From: a virus
Virus record (IMG/VR): IMGVR_UViG_3300021197_001630
Coordinates: 1-32,630 of that record
DNA: 32,630 nt
Reading direction: 5' to 3' (one strand)
This document shows positions 12,896 through 32,630 of the stretch, piece after piece; within the stretch, counting starts at the first letter, position 1; each line of letters starts with the position of its first letter. The notes beneath the pieces are model-generated. The model was not told where the DNA came from. It did no database searches and worked only from the letters and a program-made list of their open reading frames with translations. The position numbers and the translations under genes are program-made.

Positions 12896-12903
12896 TATTT
12901 ATA
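12896..12903 (+). promoter_or_regulatory. TATTTATA octamer, candidate late promoter
   Basis: Exact octamer 19 bases before the tape-measure ATG, in a 39-base gap. Confidence 0.5.
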
Positions 12904-12921
12904 GGTATATATTATATTTCT

Positions 12922-15309: not shown

Positions 15310-15315
15310 TTTAAA

Positions 15316-15323
15316 TATTTATA
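15316..15323 (+). promoter_or_regulatory. TATTTATA octamer, candidate late promoter
   Basis: Exact octamer 13 bases before the ATG at 15336. If transcription began about ten bases downstream, the mRNA leader would be only a few A residues long. Confidence 0.45.
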
Positions 15324-15335
15324 ATAAAAAAAATC

Positions 15336-15554: not shown

Positions 15555-15563
15555 TTATATTTA

Positions 15564-17234: not shown

Positions 17235-17535
17235 ACGATATAATAATATAACAACTAGAGTAAATGAAAATGGTAGACGGTATAGACGTAATCCTATCTA
17301 CCCTCAAATACCTACCACTTCAGAAGATATTTTTATTATAGCGTCGGAGGGAGATAGATACGATACTTTAGCTAATGTATACTATGGAGATCCATCTCTT
17401 TGGTGGATTATTTCGTCTGCAAATTCTTCATCTAATCGTGCTAGTTTAATTCCAAACTTAGGTACTCAAATTCGTATCCCGTACGACAAGCAAGTGGCAA
17501 TAAACTTATTTAATTCTCTAAATCTTAACAGATAG
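17227..17535 (+). CDS. Baseplate wedge gp53-like protein with LysM-like fold
   Basis: The 102-residue product has a start that is probably TTG at 17227 with AGGGA seven to eleven bases upstream, inside the end of the previous gene; no ATG is available nearby. Residues ~35-90 (IIASEGDRYDTLANVYYGDPSLWWIISSAN, then LIPNLGTQIRIPY) have LysM-like spacing: initial strand, helix with DTLA, DPSLWW, and a closing strand with a proline. T4 gp53 and P2-type gpX/LysM tail proteins share this build. It lies between two baseplate genes. It is more likely structural than peptidoglycan-binding, as in the phage relatives. Confidence 0.72.
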   Translation: MAKRYNNITTRVNENGRRYRRNPIYPQIPTTSEDIFIIASEGDRYDTLANVYYGDPSLWWIISSANSSSNRASLIPNLGTQIRIPYDKQVAINLFNSLNLNR

Positions 17536-17542
17536 GAGAAGT

Positions 17543-20035
17543 ATGAGTAGTTTTTTAGGCGAAAGTATAGATGAAAAAGTAGTTGAGCAACTTGAAGTCC
17601 GTCAAAAGGTTATAAGTAGAGATACTGAGTATATTCAATACTACTTTAAATACAAGTCAGTTAATAATGCCTGGATTCGACTAACCTCAGGTGTAGATAC
17701 TTTAGATGCTAATGGTAAATTTACTCCAAACCTAGCTAAAAATTTTATTTTATCCGGTGGGGTATTAAAATGGGATGGCAAACGTTTTGTTAGAAATGAA
17801 AATTTTGCCCCTACTGGTAATTCTGGAAGGTATAACGTAGACGAAACTTTCGGAGTTAGACCTGAACCAGGTATTACTTCATTCTCTATTCAACATAAAA
17901 ATTCTTTCGGAACTATTAGAGAAGCAGCAATTGAATTTGTAGTCTGGACTAAAGAAGATTTTGATAAAGCAGATAAACTATTTTTTAGAGCCGGATTTAC
18001 CGTAGTATGTGAATGGGGTAACGCAGGTTACGTTAGTAACAGTAACGAGTTCGTTGATACTACTTCAACTAATAACTATGATAAAATATTTGGCTATGAA
18101 AAGGAAGGGTTATCTAAAGTTGAATCGAATTTAGAAACTAATAAAGAAACTTCTAGTTTTAATTATGATGCTTTTATAGGTTTAGTAACTAACTTTTCTT
18201 GGAGTCTAAGACCAGATGGAGGTTATAATTGTAGTGTTAGAGTTGTTTCTAAAGGAGCAATTATAGAATCATTAAAGCTAGATACCGGAGAAGACTCTAG
18301 TACTGGTTTATCATTACAGCAAATCGAAGAAAAATTTTATTCTATTAAAGCTCCTAATCCTGAAAACGAAGACGACGAACCAGAAATAAATTCTAGTACT
18401 GAGATAGAGTTAAAACAAAGACGGACTTTGTTAGATTTTTTCTGTATAGGTGTAGAAAAAATTCCATTAGGAGATAAGTCCGAGGCCGGGGAGACTATCA
18501 CATACTCTAATTTTAAAAGTCAAATTTATACTACCGGAGCAAGAAAGCTTAAGCAGCAAAGAAATATAGTTGGTCGTAGCAAACCTGAAGATATAAAAGA
18601 GCTAAATCCTTTAGTAAATATTTTAAAGGATGAGGGTATAAAAGATGAAGAATTTTTAGTTACAGGATTCGATGGAGGAAGTACTCAAGATAAAGACACC
18701 GGTAATTTCAGATACATCTCTCTTCGAACTTTTCTAGCTTTAGTTAATGCATCTTTTATAAGCACCGACGATAAAGTTTTTCCAAAATTTTCTATCGATT
18801 ATAATGATTATAAAGAGTATGCTACCTTCGAGAATCATTTTTCATACGATCCGTCCTTAGTACTTTTACCTAAGACACCTACTCAACCGGAACTGCAAAA
18901 GCCTATAAAAGAGGTACAAAAAAGAATTGCAATAGAAAATATTTTTAGAAGTGTATTTCGTTTTCCTCCAAAAGTATTCGAAGCAAATGAGGTAATTGCT
19001 TTTCTTCAAGTAGTTATAAACAATACAAGTGAGAATATAGAAAGGCATTCGTCTAAAATTACAAAAAAAGAAACTGAAGAAGAAAAGCTTAATAATATAC
19101 TCAATATTCATATAAGTACTAAATTAATAAGAAATAGTTTAGACGCTAGTTTGTCATCGAACGAAGTTGAATCTACAACCTTATTAAGTTTTATGAAAAG
19201 CATTCTAAAACAAATAAATCAAAATTTAGGAGGCATTAACGAACTAGATGTGCATTACGACGATAGTACTAATTTATTTTCTATAGTAGATAGAGATCAA
19301 GCTAGCAGAACACTAGTATCTAAGAACGTAGCGACTATTAATCTTTCAGGATTAAGCTCAATTGTTTCTTCGGTTGAATTACAGACCAAACTTTCATCTG
19401 AACTAACCTCTCAAATAGCCATATCAGCTAATGCCAGTAATAGTAATAGCTTATCAGGCAATGCGAATTTATCATTCTTTAATAAAGGAGTTTTAGATAG
19501 ATTTAAGCAAGTCGAAGCGCCGCAGAGAACAGAAGAGGAAACGGACGCTGCATTAGATCAAGCCTTTTCAGATCTAATAGAAAAAAGAAATAAAGAAGAA
19601 GAAAGATTAAAAACCTTCTATAATAATTTGTTTAACGCTTATATGACTTTTAATAATCAAATAATTGATTTTACCTTTAAAGGAAAGTACGATAAGAGTT
19701 TATTTGATAAAATAAGAGGAGAAGCTTTATCTCGAACCAAAAAAGCCTATCTTGGAGGACTAACCACAGCCCCATCCGGTTTTATTCCATTTACTATCTC
19801 TATAAAAATAGACGGAATCTCAGGATTAAAGATAGGTCAAGTATTTAAGTTAGGAGATAAAGAGGTACCATCTCCACTACTTCCTGAAGCTTATAATAAG
19901 GTAGCGTTTCTAATTACCGGGCTTGACTCCTCTATAGAAAACAATAAGTGGTATACAACAGTAAGGGCGTTGACTTACAATCTACCATTAAATCCTAAAA
20001 AAGGTAATAGCGGGGGTAAATTTGTATCTTCCTAA
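17543..20035 (+). CDS. Large baseplate hub-like structural protein
   Basis: The 830-residue product is preceded by a clear Shine-Dalgarno (AGGAG seven bases before the ATG), unlike most genes here. Near residues 110-160 it has a pattern I know from tail proteins of marine and Bacteroidota phages: VRPEPGITSFSIQHKNSFGTIREA, then a FDKADKLFFRAGFTVVCEWG strand-turn. Residues 760-825 end in PFTISIKIDGISGLKIGQVFKL and TGLDSSIENNKWYTTVRALTY, the layout of a phage hub beta domain (gp27/gpD-type). A charged helical part lies around 680-720. Hub assignment is inference from layout and neighbours; no lysozyme domain is visible. Confidence 0.65.
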   Translation: MSSFLGESIDEKVVEQLEVRQKVISRDTEYIQYYFKYKSVNNAWIRLTSGVDTLDANGKFTPNLAKNFILSGGVLKWDGKRFVRNENFAPTGNSGRYNVDETFGVRPEPGITSFSIQHKNSFGTIREAAIEFVVWTKEDFDKADKLFFRAGFTVVCEWGNAGYVSNSNEFVDTTSTNNYDKIFGYEKEGLSKVESNLETNKETSSFNYDAFIGLVTNFSWSLRPDGGYNCSVRVVSKGAIIESLKLDTGEDSSTGLSLQQIEEKFYSIKAPNPENEDDEPEINSSTEIELKQRRTLLDFFCIGVEKIPLGDKSEAGETITYSNFKSQIYTTGARKLKQQRNIVGRSKPEDIKELNPLVNILKDEGIKDEEFLVTGFDGGSTQDKDTGNFRYISLRTFLALVNASFISTDDKVFPKFSIDYNDYKEYATFENHFSYDPSLVLLPKTPTQPELQKPIKEVQKRIAIENIFRSVFRFPPKVFEANEVIAFLQVVINNTSENIERHSSKITKKETEEEKLNNILNIHISTKLIRNSLDASLSSNEVESTTLLSFMKSILKQINQNLGGINELDVHYDDSTNLFSIVDRDQASRTLVSKNVATINLSGLSSIVSSVELQTKLSSELTSQIAISANASNSNSLSGNANLSFFNKGVLDRFKQVEAPQRTEEETDAALDQAFSDLIEKRNKEEERLKTFYNNLFNAYMTFNNQIIDFTFKGKYDKSLFDKIRGEALSRTKKAYLGGLTTAPSGFIPFTISIKIDGISGLKIGQVFKLGDKEVPSPLLPEAYNKVAFLITGLDSSIENNKWYTTVRALTYNLPLNPKKGNSGGKFVSS

Positions 20036-20528
20036 AAATAAATATAGAATCAAAAAAACCTTTGGTAACGAATTTAAAGATAAAGAAGGTACGGAGTATA
20101 TAGGAAGTTACATTGAACTTGCCGACGGAAGAGTTTTTGCAGGAGATAATTTAGCCTCTCCTAAAGGATTACTAACTCCTACAAAGAAAATAAACTTAAA
20201 AGTTATACCTCGTCCTTTCAATGATTACTACGGACCTACTATTTTTGATTACAAAAACGGTTTCTTTATAAGATACTTTATCAGAGATAAGAGAGATGGT
20301 AAGATAGTAGAAGTAGGTACTAGACAGTTTAAAGAAAAAAGAAGATTGAACTACGTTGAAGTTGGTAAGTTGGAATGGTTATTACAAGGGCCGGCAGAAA
20401 ATAGAGTTATAAACGATATACCGTTCATTGGAGCGGCAGAAAGAAATAAAGAAAGAGTATTAGAATTAGATAAGGAGTTAAAAGGATTAAAGAACTTCAT
20501 AAAAAACTACGGAAAGTTTGTTCGATAG
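20022..20528 (+). CDS. Baseplate-region protein, unknown
   Basis: The 168-residue product starts at TTG (20022), overlapping the previous gene by 14 bases, with GGGGGT just upstream acting as a ribosome-binding site; no in-frame ATG gives a better start. Opening YLPKNKYRIKKTFGNEF, then YIGSYIELADGRVFAGDN, IRYFIRDKRDGKIVEVGTRQF and a carboxy helix ending in GKFVR. Proteins with this opening and a GxY...DGxxFAG motif follow hub-like genes in related phage tail clusters. No enzymatic motif. Last gene of the structural block; a hairpin follows six bases after its stop. Role beyond probable baseplate component unknown. Confidence 0.6.
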   Translation: MYLPKNKYRIKKTFGNEFKDKEGTEYIGSYIELADGRVFAGDNLASPKGLLTPTKKINLKVIPRPFNDYYGPTIFDYKNGFFIRYFIRDKRDGKIVEVGTRQFKEKRRLNYVEVGKLEWLLQGPAENRVINDIPFIGAAERNKERVLELDKELKGLKNFIKNYGKFVR

Positions 20529-20534
20529 AAAATA

Positions 20535-20555
20535 GTTCTTATATTAGATAAGAAC
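20535..20555 (+). terminator. Perfect 8-bp hairpin at structural/replication border
   Basis: GTTCTTAT and ATAAGAAC form a perfect stem around an ATTAG loop, between the last structural gene and the polymerase. There is no downstream T run, so it may be a weak terminator, an operator or a processing site. Its left arm carries TTCTTATATT, repeated at 22378 before the SSB gene. Confidence 0.45.
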
Positions 20556-20571
20556 ACGGTTATATTAATAA

Positions 20572-21897
20572 ATGTTTTATATAGTAGAGACAAAAGATCA
20601 GTTACGTAATCTCTTAGAATTAAGAAAGGAGTCAGCATATGTTGAAGTTATTCCTGGTAATTACAACTACCACCCTAATCTTACTAATACTCTCGCCGTT
20701 TATATACGACCTTTGGAGAGGGGTCAAGGTTATATTCTCCCTATTTCGCACCCCGACGGACTTGGAATAGAGAGAGATATAGTAGAAAAGGTTCTATCTA
20801 AATTTACCGAACTTTATGTATGGGACAAGAAAGAGTTTCTCTATCACTTTGTCTTACCTAATCTCACCGATATACAGCTCTTAGTAGCGTTGGAGAAGTA
20901 TCAACGAATAGAATTACCAAATCCTCCTAAGACTTTTAGCTTTTACTACAATAAGTACTCCGGTCATCCGGAAGTAAATAAAATGATTCCGTTAACCAAG
21001 CTCTATGAAAGGTGTGATAATAACTTCGTTAGTTTAAGACCGTTTATGAACTTTGATAAAGACGAGTCATTTGACTTTTATAATAAGACTGCAGCTAAAG
21101 TATTCTTTCTACTAGAGCAGTCCGGGCTTAAAGTAACTTACCAATCCTTTATAAATTTATTTAAACCTAATAACCCAGATTACAATGTTTCTGAAAATAT
21201 TACGTATACTTACTATAATCTCTATAATACTACTTCTCGGCCTACCAATGCCTTTAATAGTGTTAATTATGCTGCTATTCCTCACAAAGACGAATATAGA
21301 CAAGCTATTTTACCCAAAAACGATAAATTCGTAGAGTTCGACTTTGATGGTTATCATTTACGGTTACTTTGTAATCAAATAGGTTACGAGTTAACTGAGG
21401 AGAGTGCTCATAAACAGCTTGCACGTTTATACTTCGGTAAAGACGAGATAACAGAACAAGAGTATAAACAAGCCAAGCAAATGAACTTTCAAGCTCTTTA
21501 CGGTAATATACCAGAAGAAGTTAAGCATTTAGAAGTATTTAAAAAAATACAAGATTATATAGATAGACTTTGGACTGAATTTAACGGTATAGGTTATATT
21601 AGGTGTCCTATATCAGGTAGAAAGTATACGGAAGACTTAGAAGATATGAATCCACCTAAGTTGATGAACTATACTATGCAAAATTTGGAAACCTCAAATA
21701 ATATTCTTATACTTAAAGATGTATTAAAATACTTAAAAGATAAAAAGACTACAATTGCACTCTATACCTACGATGCAATTTTATTTGACTATAATAAAGA
21801 AGACGGAGAACAACTACTTACAGAGCTAAAAGACATTATGAGCATGGATGGAAAATATCCTGTTCACTATAAGTTAAGTGATAATTTAGTTTTGTAA
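20572..21897 (+). CDS. Short family A DNA polymerase
   Basis: At 441 residues it is about half of E. coli Pol I. The polymerase motifs are in order. R223 lies in a TTSRPTNAF segment. Motif A is D257-FDGYHLR, with the catalytic Asp, where Pol I has DYSQIELR. Motif B is QAKQMNFQALYG (K302, F306, Y310). An N366...Q370 pair matches the Pol I NxxxQ helix. Motif C is TYDAI with D401. Unusual: Pol I E710 is His262, R754 is Tyr298, and the His-Asp-Glu of motif C is Tyr-Asp-Ala. Residues 1-200 look like a shrunken 3'-5' exonuclease: one Asp in an LTDIQLLVAL exoII-like helix remains and no DxE pair is seen, so proofreading is probably absent here. Both catalytic Asp remain, so it is probably active as replicative polymerase. 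Confidence 0.85.
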   Translation: MFYIVETKDQLRNLLELRKESAYVEVIPGNYNYHPNLTNTLAVYIRPLERGQGYILPISHPDGLGIERDIVEKVLSKFTELYVWDKKEFLYHFVLPNLTDIQLLVALEKYQRIELPNPPKTFSFYYNKYSGHPEVNKMIPLTKLYERCDNNFVSLRPFMNFDKDESFDFYNKTAAKVFFLLEQSGLKVTYQSFINLFKPNNPDYNVSENITYTYYNLYNTTSRPTNAFNSVNYAAIPHKDEYRQAILPKNDKFVEFDFDGYHLRLLCNQIGYELTEESAHKQLARLYFGKDEITEQEYKQAKQMNFQALYGNIPEEVKHLEVFKKIQDYIDRLWTEFNGIGYIRCPISGRKYTEDLEDMNPPKLMNYTMQNLETSNNILILKDVLKYLKDKKTTIALYTYDAILFDYNKEDGEQLLTELKDIMSMDGKYPVHYKLSDNLVL

Positions 21898-21907
21898 ATA
21901 AAATTAA

Positions 21908-21915
21908 TATTTATA
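21908..21915 (+). promoter_or_regulatory. TATTTATA octamer next to the 21917 start
   Basis: Exact octamer ending two bases before the ATG at 21917. As a promoter it could not serve that start unless the true start is downstream (for example ATG 21983). It may be a chance match. Confidence 0.3.
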
Positions 21916-21916
21916 A

Positions 21917-22369
21917 ATGGAAACATTAAAAAGTTTAAGCACGTTTCATTACGATTTTGACGATTTCAGTTACAACACCGACATGAGTAATAAGCTCTTC
22001 TGTACATTTACTGCCAAAGAAGATCTTGACGAATTACTCGATAGTATTAAGAGCAATTACATTATCCTCTATGATAAAATTTTCGTTTTAGAATGCGAAG
22101 ACCAGGATGAGTATATCTGTACCTATAATGTCGATTTTAATAACGTAGGAGATTTCTTAGAGAGTACTATCTTAGTACATAGAAAAAAACAAACTAATAC
22201 GTTATATACTATTAATGCTCTCAATGAACTTATAAAAGAGCTAAATAACGGTTATTTAGATAAGAGATTTATGGTAGACTGGGACGACTATAGAAACTCA
22301 GTCTTACTTACTAAGGATCATAAACTTCAGGTCCTAAAAACGAAATTATTTGATATAGTTGAAATATAG
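21917..22369 (+). CDS. Conserved phage protein of unknown function
   Basis: The 150-residue product is acidic at its amino end (YDFDDFSYN), followed by LFCTFTAKEDLDELLDSIK, DEYICTYNVDF, STILVHRKKQTNTLYTINALNELI and DWDDYRNSVLL. I recognise the HRKK(Q/E)TNTLYTINALN wording as belonging to a small protein kept in the replication region of marine T4-like phages, function unknown. No membrane segment or nucleotide-binding motif. The start at 21917 has no ribosome-binding site; Met23 (21983) is an alternative because the conserved part begins about there. It lies between polymerase and SSB, suggesting a replication-linked role (inference). Confidence 0.7.
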   Translation: METLKSLSTFHYDFDDFSYNTDMSNKLFCTFTAKEDLDELLDSIKSNYIILYDKIFVLECEDQDEYICTYNVDFNNVGDFLESTILVHRKKQTNTLYTINALNELIKELNNGYLDKRFMVDWDDYRNSVLLTKDHKLQVLKTKLFDIVEI

Positions 22370-22377
22370 AAAAATAT

Positions 22378-22387
22378 TTCTTATATT
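22378..22387 (+). promoter_or_regulatory. TTCTTATATT, candidate early/middle promoter element
   Basis: The same ten bases occur at 20536 before the polymerase and at 11826. Here they lie nine bases after a stop codon and 40 bases before the SSB start, in a gap without TATTTATA. A shared ATTAATAAA follows in both replication-gene leaders. Confidence 0.3.
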
Positions 22388-22427
22388 GATTAATAAATAA
22401 GTTATAAACCTAAAATTAGTTATATAG

Positions 22428-23225
22428 ATGGATTTAAATGCTATTAAGGCTAAACTTTCTGCAATGGAAGAGAAGTCTGGTAATAACAGAGAAAAGATAG
22501 ACTACGAAAAAGTATTCTGGAGACCCCCGATGGGTAAGAGTAAAATAAGAATCGTTCCTTCAGCGTTCGATCCTACTATGCCTTTTAGTGAACTAAAGTT
22601 TCACTACAACGTAGGCAAATACCCGATGCTAGCTTTGTCAAACTTTGGTAAACAAGATCCTGTTGAAGAGTTTGTAGCAGAGTTGAAAAAAACTAACGAT
22701 CGAGATAATTGGTCATTAGCTGGTAAATTAACTCCTCGTTCTCGTTTCTTTGCACCCGTAGTTGTACGGGATGAAGAAGATATGGGAGTCCGTGTATGGG
22801 GTTTTAGTCAAACTATCTTCAAAGCTTTGCTTTCTATGGCAGAAGATGAGGATATTGGGGACTATACAGACCCGGTAAACGGTTTTGATATGAACGTAGA
22901 AGTACGTCAAGGGAACCCTTACAACGAAACTTCTGTACGTATCGTACCAAAAATGACTCCGTTATCTGACAATAACGATTTAGTAGAGTCGTGGTTAAAA
23001 ACTCAACCAAACCCTTCCGAAGTTTATACTCAGTATGATTATAACTTTATTAAGAAGCAATTGCTTGAGTACATAGAACCAGGTTCTTCAGAAGAAGGAA
23101 AAGAAGAAACAACTTCTACTCCAGCTGCTCCAACTCAATCAACGTTTACATTAGAAACTGCATCTGAAGGTAAAAAGTCTACTGTAGATAAGTACGACGA
23201 TTTATTTGACGACCTAGACGATTAA
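22428..23225 (+). CDS. gp32: Single-stranded DNA-binding protein (gp32-like)
   Basis: The 265-residue product coats ssDNA at the fork and during recombination. It shows the T4 gp32 plan: a basic amino end with LNAIKAKLSAMEEKS (LAST-like cooperativity segment), an OB-fold core with FWRPPMGKSKIRIVPS (residues ~30-45) and RFFAPVVVRDEEDMGVRVWGFSQTIFKALLSM (~105-140), and a long Ser/Thr/Ala/Glu linker to an acidic tail (DKYDDLFDDLDD) for partner binding. It has no cysteine at all, so the zinc site of T4 gp32 is absent. UvsX follows after a single base, so the two recombination partners are co-translated. Confidence 0.9.
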   Translation: MDLNAIKAKLSAMEEKSGNNREKIDYEKVFWRPPMGKSKIRIVPSAFDPTMPFSELKFHYNVGKYPMLALSNFGKQDPVEEFVAELKKTNDRDNWSLAGKLTPRSRFFAPVVVRDEEDMGVRVWGFSQTIFKALLSMAEDEDIGDYTDPVNGFDMNVEVRQGNPYNETSVRIVPKMTPLSDNNDLVESWLKTQPNPSEVYTQYDYNFIKKQLLEYIEPGSSEEGKEETTSTPAAPTQSTFTLETASEGKKSTVDKYDDLFDDLDD

Positions 23226-23226
23226 T

Positions 23227-24282
23227 ATGGCTAAAAAAAGTACAGCAAGCAAAGCAAAGCAAGCCGTACAGAGTAATTTTAGCCTTGGAAAGTTTAAAGA
23301 TAAGAAAGGACTGTCTTCTGCTTCTGTAAAATTTAAGGAGCAAGGATGGATACCTCTCTCAAATGCTTTCCAAGAGATTACTTCTGTACCCGGTATACCA
23401 ACCGGACACATAACCCTACTACGAGGACATTCTGATACCGGAAAAACTACAGCGTTAATAGAAGCTGCAGTAAATGCACAGAAGATGAATATACTACCTG
23501 TGTTTATTATCACTGAGATGAAATGGTCTTGGGAACATGCTCGTGAAATGGGATTACAATTCGATGAGGTAACTGACGAAGCTACTGGAGAAATCGTTGA
23601 CTATGATGGTTTCTTTATCTATTCGGATAGAGGTACATTAAATACTATAGAAGACGTAGCCGTCTTTATTAGTGACTTAATGAACGAGCAAGATAAAGGG
23701 AACCTACCTTACGATCTTTGCTTCTTCTGGGATAGTATAGGTTCGGTACCTTGTGAATTATCCGTACGTTCTAATAAGAATAATAATGAATGGAATGCCG
23801 GAGCTATGTCAACCCAATTCGGTAATAACCTAAATCAGAAAATACTCTTATCTAGAAAAGAAAGTTCTAAGTATACCAATACTTTAGTGGCAATCAATAA
23901 GGTCTGGACTATGAAACCGGAATCTATGATGGGTTCTCCCAAGCTACAGAATAAAGGCGGTATGTCAATGTGGTACGACTCTACTATGGTAGTAACTTTT
24001 GGTAATATAACCAATCCCGGTACCAGCAAAATACGAGCAGTAAAAAATGGTAAACAAGTAGAGTTTGCCAAACGTACTAACGTACAAGTAGAAAAAAACC
24101 ATATCTCCGGAGTAACTACCAAAGGTCGAATCGTAATGACCCAGCATGGTTTTATACCGGACGAAAAAAGAGCTATTGATAAATATAAAGATCAATATAA
24201 AGAACACTGGCTGACTTTATTAGGTTCAGTTGATTTTGACTTAATAGAAGAAGGTGATCTTGAAGAGGATATGGGTATTTAA
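23227..24282 (+). CDS. uvsX: UvsX/RecA-type recombinase
   Basis: The 351-residue product is an ATP-dependent strand-exchange protein for recombination-dependent replication. Walker A is GHSDTGKT (residues 67-74). Walker B lies near 163-169 (DLCFFWDS). The conserved IPTGHITLLRG precedes Walker A and FIITEMKWSWEHA carries the catalytic-Glu region. Loop regions follow at ~180-210 and ~235-250. An acidic carboxy end (EEGDLEEDMGI) is typical. The amino end is Lys/Ser-rich (KKSTASKAKQAVQ). Its stop overlaps the ATG of the nuclease gene by one base. Confidence 0.93.
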   Translation: MAKKSTASKAKQAVQSNFSLGKFKDKKGLSSASVKFKEQGWIPLSNAFQEITSVPGIPTGHITLLRGHSDTGKTTALIEAAVNAQKMNILPVFIITEMKWSWEHAREMGLQFDEVTDEATGEIVDYDGFFIYSDRGTLNTIEDVAVFISDLMNEQDKGNLPYDLCFFWDSIGSVPCELSVRSNKNNNEWNAGAMSTQFGNNLNQKILLSRKESSKYTNTLVAINKVWTMKPESMMGSPKLQNKGGMSMWYDSTMVVTFGNITNPGTSKIRAVKNGKQVEFAKRTNVQVEKNHISGVTTKGRIVMTQHGFIPDEKRAIDKYKDQYKEHWLTLLGSVDFDLIEEGDLEEDMGI

Positions 24283-25304
24283 TGGGAGATATCCAAGACT
24301 TATTAGATAAATTAGAGAAAAAACCTCCAAGAAAGAGAAATGACCATGTGCTCATTGTTGACTCGATGAACACATTTATCCGAAGCTTTTCAATGGTAAA
24401 AGCTATGAATCCAAAAGGCCATCACATCGGTGGCCTTATTGGTTTTATGAAGTCGTTAGGATTTCTAGTAAGGACAATTGAACCTACAAGAGTTATTTGC
24501 GTATTTGACGGCAAAGGCGGGTCTACTAACAGACGGAATATGGACCCGAACTATAAAGCCAATCGTGATAATTTAAAAGTAACCCATTGGGGTATGTATG
24601 ACTCTAGAGAAGAAGAGAGAGCATCGATGGCTGCACAAATGGGAAGACTATTTGACTATTTAGAATGCCTACCAGTCGATTTAATCTCAATAGAAAAAGT
24701 AGAAGCAGATGATATTATTTCTTTCGTAGCACAAGGTCTTGCTGGTACTGGAAGAAAGGCAACTATTGTATCTTCTGATAAAGATTTTTTACAAATAGTT
24801 AAACCTGGTATAGAAGTTTACGCTCCTATAAAGAAACGTACGATTACATATGAGAATATATTAGATGAGATAAGCGTTCATCCTACTAACTACCTACTTA
24901 CTAAGGCGTTACTTGGAGATAACTCTGATAATTTAAGAGGTATAAAAGGTTTAGGTATAAAAACCCTTATAAAAGAATACCCAGAATTAAAAACTTCTGA
25001 CAAAATAGAGTTAAATTTTATATACAATCGAGCAGAGGAAAAATTAGATACTAAAAAAATATTCGCTCGAATGGTACATGACTGGAATCTTGTAGAGACA
25101 AATTACAATATAATGAATTTAGAAGATACACAGTTGGATGAGAACGAAAAAACTCATATCATGGATGTAATAAAAGGGGAGACCCCAGGACTAAATACAG
25201 GTACCTTTTTATACTATTTAGATAAAGATGCAATTGAGGGAGGAATAACTAAGAATACAGAATCGTGGCTTGAAATATTTCGACCTCTTACAATTTCACA
25301 ATAA
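24282..25304 (+). CDS. 5'-3' exonuclease, FEN/T4 RNase H family
   Basis: The 340-residue product removes RNA primers and 5' flaps during lagging-strand processing. All metal-site residues of the family are visible: D27 (IVDSMN), D76 (FDGKGG), R84/R85 with YK 91-92, the E141/D143/D144 cluster (VEADD), D166/D168 (SSDKDFL) and D213/D216 (GDNSDN). A helix-hairpin-helix RGIKGLGIKT (219-228) follows. Length is close to T4 RNase H (305) plus a short amino extension (residues 1-20). It belongs to the SSB-UvsX-nuclease-helicase run. Since the polymerase is short and has no 5' nuclease domain, this enzyme supplies that activity separately. Confidence 0.92.
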   Translation: MGDIQDLLDKLEKKPPRKRNDHVLIVDSMNTFIRSFSMVKAMNPKGHHIGGLIGFMKSLGFLVRTIEPTRVICVFDGKGGSTNRRNMDPNYKANRDNLKVTHWGMYDSREEERASMAAQMGRLFDYLECLPVDLISIEKVEADDIISFVAQGLAGTGRKATIVSSDKDFLQIVKPGIEVYAPIKKRTITYENILDEISVHPTNYLLTKALLGDNSDNLRGIKGLGIKTLIKEYPELKTSDKIELNFIYNRAEEKLDTKKIFARMVHDWNLVETNYNIMNLEDTQLDENEKTHIMDVIKGETPGLNTGTFLYYLDKDAIEGGITKNTESWLEIFRPLTISQ

Positions 25305-25313
25305 AAGTTATAC

Positions 25314-26657
25314 ATGGCAGCATTAGAAAAATTAACACATTACGGTAAGCCATTCCAAATAAAGGTTTTAGGCTCTCTACTAACCGATAAAAAGTTTATC
25401 CTAAATATAAGAGATATGATTAGGCCAGACTATTTTGATGCTGATTCTCATAAATGGGTTATAGAGACTATTATAAGTTATTTTGATAAGTATCATACAA
25501 ATATTACTATGGAGGTACTTAAAGTAGAGTTAAAGAAGATTGAAAATGAAGTACTTAAAGTAGCTGTAAAAGAAGAATTAAGACATTCTTATGAAGCTTC
25601 ACAAGCTGATACAGAATACGTACAAGAGGAGTTTACTAATTTTTGTAAAAATCAAGAGTTAAAATCTGCTTTACTGGAAAGCGCTGATCTTATGAAGTCT
25701 GGAGACTTCGAAAGTATTAGAGGGAAGATTGAGCATGCCTTAAGAGCTGGTATGGATAAGGATATAGGACATGAATACAATAAAGATTTGGAAAATAGAT
25801 ATAGAGAAGATTATCGGCCTACGATACCAACACCATGGCCGGCTATAAATAAAATGATACAAGGCGGATGGGGTCCTGGAGACCTATCAATCGTCTTTGG
25901 TAACCCAGGCGGCGGTAAGTCCTGGATGATGGTAGCTATAGCAGCTCATGCAGTAAAAATGGGCCATAATGTTATCTACTATACTTTAGAACTAGGAGAA
26001 GCTTATGTAGGTAAACGCTTTGATTGCTACTTCACAGGACACAGTATAGACGAGATTAATAACCATAGAGAGGAAGTACAAAGAGTACTTGAAGGATTAA
26101 AAGGTAATCTTATAGTTAAAGAGTACGCTCCTAAAACTGCTTCAGTTAGTACTATAAAAGCTCATATTCAAAAATGCGTTGATACTGATGTAAAGCCGGA
26201 CTTAGTTATTATTGACTACGTTGACTACTTACGAGGTCCTGTTCGAAAAAATGGAGAACGTAAAGACGAAATAGATGATGTATTTATTGCAGCTAAAGGC
26301 TTGGCTAAAGAATATCAAATCCCAGTACTTACTCCTTCTCAGGTCAACCGTATGGGTGCTAAAGATTCTGTTATTGAAGGAGATAAAGCAGCTGGTTCAT
26401 ACGATAAAATGATGGTTGCTGATATTTGTATTTCTTTATCCCGTCAAAAAGAGGATAAAGTTACCGGTACTGGACGTTTTCATATTATGAAGAATCGATA
26501 CGGCCAAGACGGTATGACTTATAATGTTAAAATGGATACTAATAATGGTCATATTGAAGTAGCTAATGAATATGACGGAGATGATATAATAAGTAACGAG
26601 CATCTAACTCCAACGGCAAAACAGATATCTCGTAAGTTTTTTGATTTAGAGACTTAA
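25314..26657 (+). CDS. gp41: Replicative DNA helicase (DnaB/gp41-like)
   Basis: The 447-residue product is a hexameric 5'-3' helicase of the replisome. Residues 1-150 match the helical DnaB amino domain (FQIKVLGSLLTDKKF opening; gp41-like). After a linker, the RecA fold starts: WGPGDLSIVFGNPGGGKSW with Walker A 196-203, IYYTLELGEAYVGKR, Walker B 296-301 (DLVIIDYVDYL), the sensor LTPSQVNR at 340-346 and the late SYDKMMVADICISLSR helix. Length close to T4 gp41 (475). No primase domain is fused and none is seen in the window. A TATTTATA element and the exported-protein block follow. Confidence 0.92.
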   Translation: MAALEKLTHYGKPFQIKVLGSLLTDKKFILNIRDMIRPDYFDADSHKWVIETIISYFDKYHTNITMEVLKVELKKIENEVLKVAVKEELRHSYEASQADTEYVQEEFTNFCKNQELKSALLESADLMKSGDFESIRGKIEHALRAGMDKDIGHEYNKDLENRYREDYRPTIPTPWPAINKMIQGGWGPGDLSIVFGNPGGGKSWMMVAIAAHAVKMGHNVIYYTLELGEAYVGKRFDCYFTGHSIDEINNHREEVQRVLEGLKGNLIVKEYAPKTASVSTIKAHIQKCVDTDVKPDLVIIDYVDYLRGPVRKNGERKDEIDDVFIAAKGLAKEYQIPVLTPSQVNRMGAKDSVIEGDKAAGSYDKMMVADICISLSRQKEDKVTGTGRFHIMKNRYGQDGMTYNVKMDTNNGHIEVANEYDGDDIISNEHLTPTAKQISRKFFDLET

Positions 26658-26680
26658 TAACAAGTTAAGACTTCAACTGC

Positions 26681-26688
26681 TATTTATA
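26681..26688 (+). promoter_or_regulatory. TATTTATA octamer, candidate late promoter
   Basis: Exact octamer 39 bases before the ATG of the T9SS-type protein, in the gap that ends the replication block. It suggests the downstream exported-protein block is transcribed late. Confidence 0.55.
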
Positions 26689-26726
26689 AGAAAGGTAACA
26701 TTAACCTAATTATCCTATAAATTACA

Positions 26727-28670
26727 ATGAAGTCGTTTCTTAGTATATTCTCTTTAATATTATTATGCTCGTTTAATGTTTTAGCACAAACATCAGGCAA
26801 TGGAGGAAGTACACCGTGGGTAGTACTTACTAACCAATACCAAACATCTCCGTTTAACGATACTACTAAAGTACCGGTTTATTATGATGGAACTAACTAC
26901 AGTGGTAAAGTAACTTCGTTACAATTTAAAATTGATTACGATGGAGTTACTTTCGATAGTTTATTTTCTATTACAAGCAAACTATCAGGAGACTATACCT
27001 TATCTTATAATGAAAATAAAACTAATGATGAGGTACTAATTAGTATAGTATATACAGGAAGTTCAACGACTACAACCTTTCCCGATACATCTATCATAGT
27101 ACTAAATTTTGACCACGTACCTGTCAAGTTACTTTACTCTAATGAACAGAATATAACAGCATTTACTTTTGCCGGATATACAGCAGCTGGTTCAAATGCT
27201 AATGGTACTGATATCTCTATAGGAACCCATTCTCACGGTGGAGCTGTTGATATACCGCATAGAAAATTTAGTGGGAATATACTAGAGTACGGTACTAGTA
27301 AAGGCCTTTCAGGGATGGAATACCAGTTATATAGAAACAACTCTTTAATTACTACTGTATTAGGTGGTAGCGCAACTACTACTAATAGTTCCGGATATTA
27401 CGAAATGGTATATTATGAACACTATTACGGTGCTATAAATAATAGTTCAACTGATTTTGATTTTTTATTTAAATCTGAACCTATAGATAGTGATGGAGGC
27501 ATTTCGACTGCTGATTCATATAAGCTATTACTAGCTGCAAATAATAAGTTACAGCTAAATGCATACCAAAGGCTGTCAGCAGACGTTAACCACTCTCATA
27601 CATTTTCGATTGCTGACTCCTACGTACTGTATAGCTACAATGCAGGAGCCTATTCTAACTGGACCGGTTTCGGAGCCGGAGGTTATAGAGACGTAATGTT
27701 TATAAAACCTGAAGACGTAAAGTATTTAAATGATGATAGTACAACGACTACTTCGGTTGGTGTTGGACCATTAGGTTTTTCGCCTCAAGAAACTAATTGG
27801 ACTTATGACCTAAATGCTTACAACGGTATAACTGATCTTACAGAGAATTTTTACGTAGTAGTAATGGGGGATGTAAATCTTACTTCATTAGGAGGCAATA
27901 GTATTTCACCTAAAATAGTTCCTTCCACTATCGGAAATACAAACAATATCAATACCTCTATCCTTGCCCAGTTACCAGATCAAAACGTTACTACTGGAGA
28001 TGAATTTTTAGTTGATTTAACTTTGTTCACAGACGGAGTAGATGTTCATTCATTCGACTTTGAATTAAAATATGATCCAGAGGTACTAGATTTTATAGAA
28101 GCATCAACACCCTACCTACCTAACGCTTGGCAACTTTACTTTAATACTGATAGCTTAGGTTTTATATCCTACGGTGGTTTAGATGCAAGTACTGGGGACT
28201 ATCCTATAAGAACTCAAGATGCAGAAACTATATTAGAATTTAAATTTAGAGCTAAACAAGTAACCGGAATCGGAGAAACACCTATAGAATTTGGAGATAA
28301 CTACAATACCGGAGATAGAAGAGGTGATGACTTAAAAACTATCGTTTATAATGGCAAAGTCTACTTACATGTTATAAGCCCAGTCTTAGACCCAATAGAC
28401 TATCCTGAAGGGTTTAAATTAGACCAAAACTACCCAAACCCATTTAACCCAGGAACTAAAATAGGATTTACAATAGTTAATCCTCAGATAGTTACTATTG
28501 ATGTTTACACATTAGACGGCAGGTATGTAGATACAATCTTTAATAAATTAGTAGGTACTGGTTACCATGAAACTTATTTCGATGCTACTAATTTGCCTTC
28601 CGGAATTTATTTTTATAAATTAAACACTACTACTGGTAGTATAACCAAAAAAATGACGTTAATAAAATAA
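26727..28670 (+). CDS. Secreted modular protein with T9SS sorting domain
   Basis: 647 residues. Signal peptide at 1-20 (KSFLSIFSLILLCSFNVLAQ). Residues ~45-180 are cohesin-like beta, ~181-230 a Cna-B/CarboxypepD-reg-like repeat (SGNILEYGT, NSSGYYEM). Dockerin-like calcium loops occur at ~253-270 (DSDGGISTADSYKLL) and ~286-303 (DVNHSHTFSIADSYVL), with a partial one at ~381. A second cohesin-like domain spans ~413-548 (FDFELKYDPEVLDFI). Residues 565-647 are a type A T9SS sorting domain: LDQNYPNPFNPGTKIGF, VYTLDGRYVD, FDATNLPSGIYFYKL, KKMTLIK. The product should cross the inner membrane by Sec and the outer membrane by the host T9SS, then be anchored or released at the surface. No catalytic domain seen; adhesion, masking or receptor modification are guesses. 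It lies in a phage operon with codon use like its neighbours, so it is phage-borne. Confidence 0.85.
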   Translation: MKSFLSIFSLILLCSFNVLAQTSGNGGSTPWVVLTNQYQTSPFNDTTKVPVYYDGTNYSGKVTSLQFKIDYDGVTFDSLFSITSKLSGDYTLSYNENKTNDEVLISIVYTGSSTTTTFPDTSIIVLNFDHVPVKLLYSNEQNITAFTFAGYTAAGSNANGTDISIGTHSHGGAVDIPHRKFSGNILEYGTSKGLSGMEYQLYRNNSLITTVLGGSATTTNSSGYYEMVYYEHYYGAINNSSTDFDFLFKSEPIDSDGGISTADSYKLLLAANNKLQLNAYQRLSADVNHSHTFSIADSYVLYSYNAGAYSNWTGFGAGGYRDVMFIKPEDVKYLNDDSTTTTSVGVGPLGFSPQETNWTYDLNAYNGITDLTENFYVVVMGDVNLTSLGGNSISPKIVPSTIGNTNNINTSILAQLPDQNVTTGDEFLVDLTLFTDGVDVHSFDFELKYDPEVLDFIEASTPYLPNAWQLYFNTDSLGFISYGGLDASTGDYPIRTQDAETILEFKFRAKQVTGIGETPIEFGDNYNTGDRRGDDLKTIVYNGKVYLHVISPVLDPIDYPEGFKLDQNYPNPFNPGTKIGFTIVNPQIVTIDVYTLDGRYVDTIFNKLVGTGYHETYFDATNLPSGIYFYKLNTTTGSITKKMTLIK

Positions 28671-28675
28671 AAGCT

Positions 28676-28987
28676 ATGAGCGAACAAGAACAACCACTAA
28701 ACTCAGGTTTCAAGGACCTACTTAATGCTACAATGAGCCGCCGTTGGGCTATAACTTTAACAGTACTTATTACCTTTATGCTACTAGCATTAGGTATACT
28801 TCTTTCTATTAGAACTGAGGCAACCGTTTCCGGGGAGTGGAAAGAGTTACTATTATTAATGCTTGGTGCCTTAATTGGTTCGTACGGTAAAATAATAGAT
28901 TATTGGTTCTCTGATACTGATAAAGATAAAATGCTTGTTCAAAAAATGGATGAAGAAGACGGAGTTTCACTTTCAGACACTATGTAA
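28676..28987 (+). CDS. Holin-like small membrane protein
   Basis: The 103-residue product has a charged amino end followed by two predicted membrane helices (about 24-45 and 56-75, WAITLTVLITFMLLALGILL and LLLLMLGALIGSYG), then GKIIDYWFSDTDKDKM and an acidic tail. Small two-helix proteins with a GxYGKxxDYWF-like junction are common in marine phages and usually called holins. Start five bases after the T9SS-type gene, three bases before the secreted nuclease. No endolysin gene is recognisable beside it. Holin is the best reading, but a generic membrane protein cannot be excluded. Confidence 0.6.
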   Translation: MSEQEQPLNSGFKDLLNATMSRRWAITLTVLITFMLLALGILLSIRTEATVSGEWKELLLLMLGALIGSYGKIIDYWFSDTDKDKMLVQKMDEEDGVSLSDTM

Positions 28988-28990
28988 ATT

Positions 28991-29575
28991 ATGAAAAAAT
29001 TAATTATAATTTTTATATTAATGCTTCCTTCGACCATTTTTGGTCAGGAAGTTAAGATTGTTGAAACTGATTTATTTACAATTGGATATTCCGAACAACT
29101 ACAACAACCAGTTTGGGCTGAATATGTTGTAAAATGTCCTAACGGTACGGCTAGTAGATCTGGAATGGACTTCTATGAAGATAAAGAAATCTTTACTTCG
29201 GACGATGACGACTATAAAGGTAACGTATGGGATAAAGGGCATATGGCTCCTGCAGCAGCTTTTTCTTGCACCAGAGAGATGCTTAGAGAAACTTTTACTT
29301 TTCTTAATTCTGCCTTACAGCACCAAAGTCTTAATAGAGGAGTCTGGAACAGATTAGAAGCTTTTGAAAGAGACTTAGCTAACTTCTATGAGGTAAGCGT
29401 ATACATAGCTGTAATCTTTGACGAAGATTCCGAAGTTTTAACTACTGGTGCAACCGTACCCTCTGGTTTTAGAAAAACTATATATTTTGATGATAATACA
29501 GTTGTGTTTGAATTTCCAAACGAACAAATATCCGGCAAACGTTGGATTGACTTCAAATTAGATAACTTTAACTAA
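28991..29575 (+). CDS. Secreted DNA/RNA non-specific endonuclease (NUC family)
   Basis: 194 residues. A signal peptide ends near residue 19 (KKLIIIFILMLPSTIFGQ), so the mature enzyme is extracytoplasmic. The beta-beta-alpha-metal site is complete: WDKGHMAPAA (81-88, His84 as base; the usual DRGH is DKGH) and FLNSALQHQSLNRGVWNRLE with N106, N115 (metal ligand) and E123. Spacing matches Serratia nuclease (H89, N119, E127). Expected to cut single- and double-stranded DNA and RNA with Mg2+. Shorter than Serratia nuclease (245 mature), close to small NUC members. It lies in the exported-protein block. Possible uses: degrading released or incoming DNA outside the inner membrane, or nucleotide scavenging; the sequence does not decide. 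Confidence 0.9.
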   Translation: MKKLIIIFILMLPSTIFGQEVKIVETDLFTIGYSEQLQQPVWAEYVVKCPNGTASRSGMDFYEDKEIFTSDDDDYKGNVWDKGHMAPAAAFSCTREMLRETFTFLNSALQHQSLNRGVWNRLEAFERDLANFYEVSVYIAVIFDEDSEVLTTGATVPSGFRKTIYFDDNTVVFEFPNEQISGKRWIDFKLDNFN

Positions 29576-29582
29576 TAAAAAA

Positions 29583-29909
29583 ATGAGCGAAGAAAAACAG
29601 GAAGGTTTCCTTTCACAAATTAAAACTCAAATTGTAGCCGGGGTTGGTATTGTACTAGCCGGACTAGGTACTGCTTTTGTAGACGAAATCAAATCCTTTG
29701 TAGGAATCGAAGACGAAGCAGCAATAGAAGCACCAGCTGTTAATGCTGAACAGAACGTTAACGTAGAAGGTCCAACTATTAACCTTACTATACCTCAAGC
29801 AGCTCCTATTCAAACTATAATAAAAGAAGTTAAAGCCGAGCCTGAGACTGTAAAAGTTGAAGAGCCTACTGCCACAGATAGATTACTAAGATACAAAAAG
29901 AAAAACTAA
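29583..29909 (+). CDS. Small membrane-anchored protein, unknown
   Basis: 108 residues: one likely membrane helix near 14-33 (IKTQIVAGVGIVLAGLGTAF), then an acidic, Val/Pro-rich region (VNVEGPTINLTIPQAAPIQ, EVKAEPETVKVEEP) and a basic end (RLLRYKKKN). The layout, an anchor plus an extended periplasmic or cytoplasmic arm, would fit a spanin-like or scaffold role, but no family is recognised. A leader of seven A residues precedes the ATG; its stop overlaps the next ATG by one base (TAATG). Confidence 0.55.
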   Translation: MSEEKQEGFLSQIKTQIVAGVGIVLAGLGTAFVDEIKSFVGIEDEAAIEAPAVNAEQNVNVEGPTINLTIPQAAPIQTIIKEVKAEPETVKVEEPTATDRLLRYKKKN

Positions 29910-30154
29910 TGAAATTACCAAATATACCTTACTACATCGAACACGGCCTGATTGCTTTAGGGATTACTGTTCTAGCCTTTTTAATTCCTAACTTTGCAAT
30001 AGTATCTGCAGGGTTCTTTTTCTACCTTGGTAGAGAAATTAGAGACTTAGAAAAACTACATGACTGGGATATGGAAGGTTTTGATTGGCCTGGAATGTTG
30101 TGGCCAGTTTATGTTACTGTAGCTCTTTGGATTCTAACTTTTATATTTCTATAA
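29909..30154 (+). CDS. Small integral membrane protein, unknown
   Basis: 81 residues with two or three hydrophobic segments: about 12-41 (HGLIALGITVLAFLIPNFAIVSAGFFFYL, possibly a hairpin) and 62-80 (WPVYVTVALWILTFIFL). Between them a charged GREIRDLEKLHDW loop. Translation is coupled by one-base overlap with the gene before, and the stop lies one base from the CsgG-like gene. Similar small proteins with FYxGREIRD-type loops are seen in marine phage genomes; function unknown. A holin or antiholin role is possible given context. Confidence 0.55.
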   Translation: MKLPNIPYYIEHGLIALGITVLAFLIPNFAIVSAGFFFYLGREIRDLEKLHDWDMEGFDWPGMLWPVYVTVALWILTFIFL

Positions 30155-30155
30155 C

Positions 30156-30848
30156 ATGAATAAATTTATACTTTTCTTTACAGGCGTTTTTCTTTTAGTT
30201 ACTGGCTGTTCTTCTTCTGTATTAGTTGAAGATTTTCAAGCAGGATATGAAGAGCAAAAATCAATCTACGACATAGAGTATAATACCGGAGAAAGAACTC
30301 CTATTCAATTAGCTAATCTTTCAGTTACTAAAGAGATAATAGAGCAGTACCCAGAACTTGGAGACAAAAGAGTAGGTTTAGGATTAACTAACCGTATTCT
30401 TGAAAACTTTGAAGAGACTGGTTTCTTTAGATATACAGAAGAGAAAGAAGATATACTAAACCAAATGATAGATAAATGGGAACTATCAGATGCCGGTTTA
30501 GCTACTGATGGTACTGAAATTAATACAGGTACTTTAGTACTTCCTAAGTACTTTGTGTATGCCGAACTTTACGAATTCTCTGTATCAACAGAAGAAGTAG
30601 TAGACAAGTTTAATACTATAACCCGTAATACTACAAGAGTTGGCTTCCAAATTAGACTTGTAAGCGTAGAAAACGGAGAATACATTATAGCATCAGGCTT
30701 AGGAGAATCAACTCAAACCGGCTTAGGATTTTTATCTAGTCCAGAAATGAACTTTAATCAATCCACCGTAGGTATAAGTACTCAAAAGTCTCTTGAAACT
30801 GCTACTGTTACTCTTATACGCCGTGCTCAAAGGAGAGGCTGGCTGTAA
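30156..30848 (+). CDS. CsgG-like outer-membrane lipoprotein
   Basis: 230 residues. Lipoprotein signal with lipobox VTGC (Cys18). The body matches the CsgG/curli-secretion-channel plan: LANLSVTKEIIEQYPELGDKRVG, GLTNRILENFEETGFFRYTEE near 90-110, YVYAEL-like strand (YFVYAELYEFSV, ~149), FQIRLVSVENGEYIIASGLGES (~180-200) and a terminal helix with A..T.IRRAQ. CsgG forms a nonameric pore for curli export; this is shorter than E. coli CsgG (277). CsgG homologues have, to my knowledge, been seen in other marine phages without a known role. It is followed by a putative outer-membrane barrel gene, suggesting an outer-membrane complex. No CsgA/B curli subunit is present. Confidence 0.8.
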   Translation: MNKFILFFTGVFLLVTGCSSSVLVEDFQAGYEEQKSIYDIEYNTGERTPIQLANLSVTKEIIEQYPELGDKRVGLGLTNRILENFEETGFFRYTEEKEDILNQMIDKWELSDAGLATDGTEINTGTLVLPKYFVYAELYEFSVSTEEVVDKFNTITRNTTRVGFQIRLVSVENGEYIIASGLGESTQTGLGFLSSPEMNFNQSTVGISTQKSLETATVTLIRRAQRRGWL

Positions 30849-30853
30849 GAGGA

Positions 30854-31774
30854 ATGAAACGCCTCTTATTTATACTTACCTTATTACCGAGTTTCTGTTT
30901 TTCACAGACTACCCTTAAGTTTAACTATACTGAGGTTTGTAGTGAAGAGCAGAGACAGATGGTCGTAAATATAGATCCTAACTCCAATAGCTACTCTTTT
31001 TTCGGAGAAAATAAATCTTTTACATCTCAAGAAATAGCAGATGGTACACCATATGAATGGTTAAATACAGTTTATAAAAGATGGTCGGAGTATTACCCGT
31101 GTGCTGAGATTAGAAGTTTAGTCGCAGCTTCTACTAAAAGCTCTTCAGAAAGTTCTAAAGTAGATATAAATGCTCCGATAGTCGTAGTGCAATCAGATTT
31201 AGGGTACTTAAACTCTTTCTTTACAACTTCAGCCGGCTTCTCTAATACTAATTTACTAACAAACGAATCTGAGGGGTATACTTTTAACGGTTCTACCTCA
31301 AGAGTCTTTGGTATTGGTTACTATAGAGTTACTCCTTTTGCAAATAATATTAAAGGAATAACTAATACTAATGTTATTCTTTTTGAAAACGACTTTTTGG
31401 GGAGTTTATCAACAGGGTTAACTGTAAATAAAGGAGATTTATTTGCTTTTATTTTTAATGCATATATTTTTGGTAATTTAAACGGCTACGGATTCCAAGA
31501 CAGCTCTGTACTTTTAGGACTTAGTTATCCATTTTTTAAAACAAGAAATATAGATCTAACCGGTCTCCTTTTAACTTCATATACCTACAGAGTTAAAGTA
31601 TTTAAACTAGATTACTGGTTCGAGGATTACGTTTCTTTCTCACCATATATCAATTTGACATACCGCCTTACGCAGACGTTTGGACTTAACCTCTCCTACA
31701 CTAGTACTTTAAGAACAGATATTTATAAGAAAGATCAGTACGGTATATTACTTGGAGGTAGAGTATTTTTCTAA
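30854..31774 (+). CDS. Putative outer-membrane beta-barrel protein
   Basis: 306 residues. Signal peptide ~1-18 (KRLLFILTLLPSFCFSQ). An amino domain (20-90) has two cysteines that could pair, C29 in NYTEVCSEEQ and C83 in YYPCAEIRS. A Ser-rich linker leads to alternating hydrophobic/polar strands (GIGYYRVTPF, FLGSLSTGLTVNKGD, SVLLGLSYPFF, YINLTYRLTQTFGLNLSYTSTL) ending in GRVFF, with the terminal Phe typical of barrel proteins. A good AGAGGA ribosome-binding site lies in the two-gene junction. I recall the NYTExC amino domain next to CsgG-like genes in other marine phages, but cannot verify it. Likely partner of the CsgG-like protein; function unknown. Confidence 0.65.
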   Translation: MKRLLFILTLLPSFCFSQTTLKFNYTEVCSEEQRQMVVNIDPNSNSYSFFGENKSFTSQEIADGTPYEWLNTVYKRWSEYYPCAEIRSLVAASTKSSSESSKVDINAPIVVVQSDLGYLNSFFTTSAGFSNTNLLTNESEGYTFNGSTSRVFGIGYYRVTPFANNIKGITNTNVILFENDFLGSLSTGLTVNKGDLFAFIFNAYIFGNLNGYGFQDSSVLLGLSYPFFKTRNIDLTGLLLTSYTYRVKVFKLDYWFEDYVSFSPYINLTYRLTQTFGLNLSYTSTLRTDIYKKDQYGILLGGRVFF

Positions 31775-32244
31775 TGAAGCTTTTATTTTTTTTACAGGTA
31801 TTTACTGTTTGGGTAGCACCGGCAGAAAATAGTACTCATATACAGAACTTAAGTAATACTTTAGTTCAAAGAACTACTGCTTTAGTCGTAGAAGAGTATT
31901 TACAAGACATTGACGATTTTAGATTAGTTCAAGATAGATTTGAAGCTGATATTATAGTAACTCCGTCTTTTATAGGATATAGAAGACCTAATACTGATAT
32001 AAGCTTTTCAGTACTTCAAGTACAAGAAGAAGAAGTTTTTCTGACTATGAGGATAGAATTTTATTCTGTTAACTATTCTTTTTCTCAATCTTTAATTAGT
32101 CAGGCGTCTTTAGTTAGAAAGGCAGGTTCTAACTTTCTGGATATAGAAGACTCTCAAAACGATTTTGCTGAAAGTTCTGTCTTTAATTTAATAAAGAAAA
32201 CGATTAATACTTGTTTCCAAGACTTCGATTCGTTAATCTTTTAG
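31774..32244 (+). CDS. Exported protein of unknown function
   Basis: 156 residues. Short signal peptide ~1-17 (KLLFFLQVFTVWVAPA). The mature part has an early helix (LSNTLVQRTTALVVEEYLQD), FEADIIVTPSFIGYRRP, alternating strands and a late helix (FAESSVFNLIKKTINTCF). The helix-strand order, FEADIIVTPSF and helical end recall the periplasmic part of CsgG/LpoB-type proteins, but with no lipobox Cys; weak resemblance. Start overlaps the stop of the barrel gene by one base, so it belongs to the same unit. The 3' end overlaps the convergent minus-strand gene by 12 bases. Confidence 0.55.
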   Translation: MKLLFFLQVFTVWVAPAENSTHIQNLSNTLVQRTTALVVEEYLQDIDDFRLVQDRFEADIIVTPSFIGYRRPNTDISFSVLQVQEEEVFLTMRIEFYSVNYSFSQSLISQASLVRKAGSNFLDIEDSQNDFAESSVFNLIKKTINTCFQDFDSLIF

Positions 32245-32630
32245 TATCTCGGTCAAATCAATTAAGTTATAAGTTATTCCTATTCCAACAAAAGGAGTTA
32301 GTCCCTGAGAAGTAAATCCATACCCACCATGTAATCCTAAGCTTACTCTACTTGGAACTTTTCTCAAAAAATCCTTACCAGTTAATTTATTACCTCCTAT
32401 ATAAGTAATCTTTACAAAATCAGTTAACGGTAATACGTCTATTTCATAACCAGCAGATAAAGGTTTTAATTTAGTTGTTACATTAAGATTTACTCTAAAG
32501 TTTTTTATATTAAAAGTTTCTTCGTATGGCTCATTATTAACGTAATCCCACTTAAAAGAACTTATTGCTTGCAGCTCAAAAGCACCACCATTAAATTTTA
32601 CTACTTCATTTATTAGCAAATCGTAACTAT
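32233..32630 (-). CDS. Partial protein with barrel-like C-terminus (5' end outside)
   Basis: The frame is open to the window edge (upstream of a TTG at 32619 it continues SYDL), so the gene starts beyond 32630. The visible ~130 residues are beta-rich with FRVNLNVTTKLKPL, PSRVSLGLHGGYGFTSQGLTPFVGIGITYNLI. The last motif, GxxxGYGxTxxGLxPFVGIGIxYNL, is typical of small phage or prophage proteins in Bacteroidota that carry an amino-terminal membrane anchor, often near lysis genes; I know similar ones as DUF6808. It is the only minus-strand gene, converging on the + strand block. Spanin-like or envelope role is a guess. Confidence 0.6.
   Translation of the reverse strand, partial: SYDLLINEVVKFNGGAFELQAISSFKWDYVNNEPYEETFNIKNFRVNLNVTTKLKPLSAGYEIDVLPLTDFVKITYIGGNKLTGKDFLRKVPSRVSLGLHGGYGFTSQGLTPFVGIGITYNLIDLTEILKD

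Follow-up and report, generated by a model that had tools for sequence, protein, structure and literature searches.

Phage-encoded cargo of the type IX secretion system (T9SS) has been reported previously in Cryophage (PMC7468147), so its occurrence in a phage is no new principle. In the sections of that report that deal with these genes, the phage proteins carry T9SS type A sorting domains and are presumed users of the host T9SS. The cargo described there consists of endoglucanase, GH39 and PA14-domain proteins, unlike the protein considered here, and in the text concerned the host is not deduced from the style of the domain.

Two cultured phages offer further comparison. Flavobacterium phage vB_FspM_immuto (genus Immutovirus; NC_055915) is the nearest cultured relative of the phage described here, a kinship overlooked in the initial annotation of this DNA. 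It has a secreted nuclease, a cohesin and sorting-domain protein and a lipoprotein-like gene, all with counterparts in our sequence. Rhodothermus phage RM378, whose host belongs to the Rhodothermia, is contractile-tailed and shares a sheath, a tube and a DnaB-like helicase with our sequence. To our knowledge, little has been learned about the phages that infect Balneolales, Rhodothermia and Ignavibacteria; a literature search for a Balneola phage found no paper.

A phage of the immuto-like group

The window (the whole stretch of DNA analysed, a 32.6-kb IMG/VR virus record) carries tail fibre-like, sheath, tube, hub, tape-measure-like and replication genes. The combination pointed out in the initial annotation, a T4-like gene set plus a polymerase of family A, is borne out: sheath, gp32, RecA/UvsX-like, exonuclease, DNA_pol_A and helicase genes were all identified. 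The tail sheath and tail tube (9515–11771, + strand; assigned by profile and protein matches) are 64% and 74% identical in amino acids to those of immuto. The replication block (20572–26657, + strand) encodes polymerase A, a hypothetical protein, gp32, UvsX, a 5'-3' exonuclease and a DnaB-type helicase. The order pol-gp32-uvsX-exo-helicase is that of immuto, which also has sheath, tube and hub genes, and identities to immuto are 58% (polymerase), 57–58% (gp32), 69–71% (uvsX), 57% (exonuclease) and 70% (helicase). By common gene order and homologous core proteins, the window belongs to the Immutovirus-like phage group. Nucleotide-level similarity to the type phage, by which membership of the genus itself would be judged, was not found: megablast of positions 1–25000 gave no match to immuto and no close DNA relative in the phage collection.

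More than 500 IMG/VR stretches have related helicases. A tree built from five replication proteins of 118 contigs places immuto within a clade of 73 contigs (support 0.999) and the window apart from it, with L008, L061, L010, L011 and L202 (support 1.0). Among the viral loci scanned, a sorting domain was present only in the window, L002–L005, L204/L205 (which sit on the L004/L005 contigs) and immuto.

The polymerase and the T4-like set had also been thought to recall RM378. This resemblance did not hold up: the RM378 polymerase gives no match, and the sheath, tube and helicase are 34%, 37% and 27% identical. Several other features of these proteins deserve mention. The family A polymerase (20572–21897; 58% identical to that of immuto) is only 441 amino acids long and has dozens of IMG/VR relatives at 34–40% identity. 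The tail fibre-like protein (1676–8986; 2436 amino acids) has many GNVGIGTTSP and GGFxITGTAISSSNNxLIL repeats. Microcystis phage Mel-JY01 (PP395634.1), recorded as a cyanophage, has a sheath 48% and a gp32 31% identical to those of the FCB-associated immuto-like group, and its host record merits checking given this likeness.

The cargo gene and the style of its sorting domain

Directly after the replication block lies a gene for a 647 amino acid long protein (26727–28670, + strand) with, in order, a probable signal peptide, an N-terminal beta-rich, possibly dockerin-like part, a cohesin domain and a T9SS type A sorting domain. The N-terminus (MKSFLSIFSLILLCSFNVLAQT) resembles a Sec signal peptide on reading by eye, the probable peptide being MKSFLSIFSLILLCSFNVLA, followed by QT (26727–26786). 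The cohesin domain (amino acids 416–545; 27972–28361) matches Pfam PF00963 with 44.1 bits (E=3e-11). The sorting domain (28419–28667) makes up the last 83 residues of the open reading frame, in frame; this C-terminal stretch includes LDQNYPNPFNPGTKIGFTI and runs LDQNYPNPFNPGTKIGFTIVNPQ...SGIYFYKLNTTTGSITKKMTLIK. Over amino acids 569–643 it scores 34.8 bits against Pfam Por_Secre_tail (PF18962; cut-off 27, E=2.1e-8) and 40.6 bits against NCBIfam TIGR04183 (cut-off 23, E=1.8e-10). As in other members of the family the domain is C-terminal, and since both scores exceed the curated cut-offs, the match is no chance event. The AlphaFold model of the protein has a mean pLDDT of 49.0, with values of about 65–84 in the cohesin and sorting-domain stretches alone. 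In immuto the cohesin protein is split into gp014 (corresponding to amino acids 1–388 of the window protein) and gp015 (amino acids 406–647), which are fused in the window; the two genes occupy the equivalent position in the gene order, although immuto has RNR, endonuclease and lectin genes separating its helicase from the cassette.

The motif NYPNPFNP (28428–28451) followed by TKIGF, pointed out in the initial annotation, is indeed present in this C-terminus. It represents the YPNPFNP sub-style of the TIGR04183/PF18962 family, typical of Rhodothermia and Ignavibacteria and not of Bacteroidia. We surveyed genomes with a degenerate DNA pattern for YPNPFNP, in which the phage was not used as a seed and for which the reversed control gave zero throughout. 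The motif is present in 64/80 Rhodothermia genomes, compared with 2/246 in Flavobacteriales and 2/198 in Bacteroidia, in agreement with the earlier proposal that this style marks Ignavibacteria, Balneolota/Rhodothermota and Marinimicrobia-like genomes rather than Flavobacteriia. Across the GTDB phylum that contains Balneola the distribution of the motif is bimodal: 121 of the 296 genomes are positive, mostly with tens of copies, and the others have none. The Flavobacteriales centre of the survey was identified by a uL2 stretch with 56/57 residues identical to PDB 7JIL, which we take to be F. johnsoniae. Missing sorting domains do not explain the rarity of the motif in Flavobacteriales, because the family is above cut-off in 36/40 genomes of this order, with up to at least 109 copies per genome. 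Sampled Ignavibacteria domains and some Marinimicrobia and Zixibacteria domains also have YPNPFNP. In the four rare motif-positive Bacteroidia genomes, one match is not in a sorting domain and the three others lie on short contigs and may be binning errors. The rare YPNPFNP sorting domains L320, L321 and L322, on short contigs of genomes filed as Flavobacteriales or Bacteroidia, are possible bin contamination. An earlier genome scan for the best 80 domain matches had the pattern DQNYPNPF as part of its seed; as evidence of style it would be circular, and the pattern and HMM surveys were used instead.

The whole domain shows the same preference as the motif. Clade HMMs were trained on 49 Flavobacteriales, 20 Balneolales and 20 Ignavibacteria domains, and in cross-validation they separated the groups nearly completely, the training domains being the best-scoring family matches from a limited number of genomes. 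When the better of the Balneolales and Ignavibacteria scores was compared with the Flavobacteriales score, Flavobacteriales domains gave margins of −57 to +8 bits, Balneolales domains +66 to +97 and Ignavibacteria domains +75 to +101. The window domain scores 104.4 bits with the Balneolales, 97.0 with the Ignavibacteria and 41.5 with the Flavobacteriales HMM; the corresponding values for immuto, whose domain is of the flavobacterial style (KVYPVPTDAL...), are 19.3, 24.8 and 44.4. The sister contigs L002/L003 also have the non-Bacteroidia style (margin +60 bits; protein identity 69%), as does L005 more weakly (margin +32 bits; protein identity 50%).

A phylogeny of the domain had been proposed in the initial annotation as a check. 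Immuto groups with Flavobacteriales (SH-aLRT 98), and in the free tree, an under-resolved one of 85 columns, the window and L003 group with 10 Ignavibacteria rows (SH-aLRT 97), on the non-Flavobacteriales side; however, a constraint that placed the phage domains among those of Flavobacteriales could not be rejected (p-AU 0.64). Because so few columns do not reject the constrained alternatives, we base the style on the motif and the HMMs rather than on the tree. By its YPNPFNP motif and whole-domain HMM preference, the sorting domain of the window is of the non-Bacteroidia (Rhodothermia/Ignavibacteria) style. The domain searched alone against known phages gave no match.

Start signals and the host

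Ribosomes of Bacteroidia as a rule start translation without Shine-Dalgarno pairing (PMC9976891). We counted GGAG, GAGG or AGGA at −16 to −5 before the leftmost ATGs, with phage sets dereplicated at 70%. Such motifs precede 14/434 starts in Flavobacteriales, 40/316 in Rhodothermia and 43/139 in Ignavibacteria. Among the phages, they precede 13/377 starts on the immuto side and 16/110 in the window lineage, a set to which some contigs were assigned on sheath or cargo similarity alone (in the tree, L004/L005 and L203/L006 do not stand firmly with the window). The window lineage carries Shine-Dalgarno-like signals at a Rhodothermia-like rate (p=0.63), unlike the immuto side (p=8e-5) and Flavobacteriales (p=3e-5). 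The window alone has 2/21 starts with a signal, which is not significant, and just one of the sites, before position 17543, seems convincing. A looser count of 4/21 was discarded, as three of the four sites seemed misplaced or within the preceding gene; we rely on the clade-level result alone. A phage bS21 gene could alter start-signal use. Codon usage of the window is nearest to Flavobacteriales, which is uninformative on the host because codon usage tracks G+C.

CRISPR spacers, suggested in the initial annotation as a check, gave no match in Rhodothermia or Flavobacteriales genomes. The search covered positions 12000–31990, with only two candidates scored per genome. In 244 Rhodothermia genomes all DNA matches above 46 bits fall on the sorting domain, and nothing else spacer-like was found above this level. 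In 296 Flavobacteriales genomes there were, besides a phage contig and the nuclease described below, only short matches, judged together rather than singly to be chance. In the absence of a spacer match, we infer the host from the signals above.

The useful result, in our view, is that two related phages have orthologous genes whose sorting domains differ in style, which makes the guess at a host testable. That the immuto version of the cargo has the flavobacterial style suggests that style tracks host class. If the domain of each lineage matches, and was taken from, its own hosts, which is the simplest cause, the window host is likelier to be of the Rhodothermia/Ignavibacteria type. We therefore regard the gene as probably phage T9SS surface cargo whose host is of this type rather than a flavobacterium, and the non-flavobacterial FCB host named in the initial annotation is, on balance, the probable one. 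Domain style and clade-level start signals speak for that host, and kinship with immuto and the lack of a spacer match speak against it. Homologues in flavobacterial phages, which the initial annotation took as a sign to the contrary, do exist, since immuto is the nearest isolate (57–74% amino acid identity), but its cargo has the flavobacterial style.

Phylogenetic bracketing favours Flavobacteriales, given that the nearest isolate grows on Flavobacterium and that a gp32-bearing immuto-like contig occurs in one of the 296 Flavobacteriales genomes, a MAG (G401); gp32 was found in none of 238 Rhodothermia genomes. The G401 contig (C32; L384, L385) is more distant from the window than immuto is. 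The host might accordingly be a marine flavobacterium like that of immuto, with the foreign-style domain acquired horizontally and functional because the T9SS tolerates different type A domains. The matching gene order of immuto and the nuclease relatives in Flavobacteriales chromosomes fit this possibility as well. We consider it unlikely: YPNPFNP is nearly absent from Bacteroidia genomes, from which it seems that acquired copies do not persist there, three contigs of the phage group have kept the style despite their divergence, and the start signals of the window lineage are Rhodothermia-like. Another FCB-superphylum group with the same style (Marinimicrobia, Zixibacteria, Calditrichota or KSB1) is a rather improbable host. 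Such genomes are among the best 80 domain matches of the scan seeded partly by DQNYPNPF, and domains from some of these groups contain YPNPFN, but the window scores higher with the Balneolales than with the Ignavibacteria HMM, in a set of models that covers Balneolales, Ignavibacteria and Flavobacteriales. It is very unlikely that the domain is a relic unused for secretion, in a virion or periplasmic protein. Secretion of the cargo is itself a prediction, and the gene lies among the accessory rather than the structural genes of the window; against a relic, the protein has a signal-peptide-like start and a full-length domain above both curated cut-offs, and the C-terminal domain is conserved in L003, L005 and immuto.

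If the cargo is indeed secreted, the protein would be exported by Sec, and the host T9SS would recognise the C-terminal sorting domain, carry the cargo across the outer membrane and attach or release it. The cohesin and dockerin-like parts would thereby be displayed on the infected cell. As a scaffold on its surface they could keep out rival phages, attach the cell to its neighbours or retain other secreted proteins, the adjacent nuclease for example. Immuto-like phages may even have crossed between classes (Bacteroidia and Rhodothermia/Ignavibacteria), the cargo swapping its sorting domain to suit each host T9SS so that the domain serves as a label of host class; we see this as an evenly balanced possibility. 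If the cargo domain does match the host T9SS, it would give a spacer-free signal of host class usable across metagenomic phage collections. The window and immuto orthologues, with their differing styles, also make cross-class acceptance of sorting domains by the T9SS directly testable.

The accessory cassette

The cargo gene is part of an accessory gene cassette found in immuto-like phages of the T4 type, beside a secreted nuclease and a lipoprotein-like gene. The cassette genes downstream of it (28676–32628), which encode secreted and membrane proteins, are shared in part by the otherwise divergent L003, L005 and immuto (L065). Two small membrane proteins (28676–28987 and 29583–29909, + strand) are common to L002/L003. 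Between them lies a secreted DNA/RNA non-specific endonuclease (28991–29575, + strand; Pfam PF01223, E=8.8e-28), whose protein is 64% identical to that of L003, 49% to that of immuto and 48% to proteins of Flavobacteriales chromosomes. At the DNA level, relatives of the nuclease gene occur in genomes of Flavobacteriales, but none above 46 bits in 244 Rhodothermia genomes.

The conserved lipoprotein-like protein (30156–30848, + strand) is 39% identical to immuto gp017. It has no Pfam or PDB profile match, so a suspected resemblance to a CsgG/curli pore was dropped; its AlphaFold model is poor (mean pLDDT 48.2), and a search of IMG/VR for relatives of this gene and of 17543–20032 found none. It is followed by a secreted, possibly outer-membrane, protein (30854–31774, + strand; by eye), a protein assigned to the cassette by comparison but to no family (31774–32244, + strand) and, on the − strand, a DUF6808-containing protein cut by the window end (32233–32628; Pfam PF20647, E=2.6e-8). 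In L003 (13547–14296) and L005 (1967–2644), open reading frames that by eye resemble GIY-YIG homing endonucleases form insertions close to the cassette and between the exonuclease and helicase genes.
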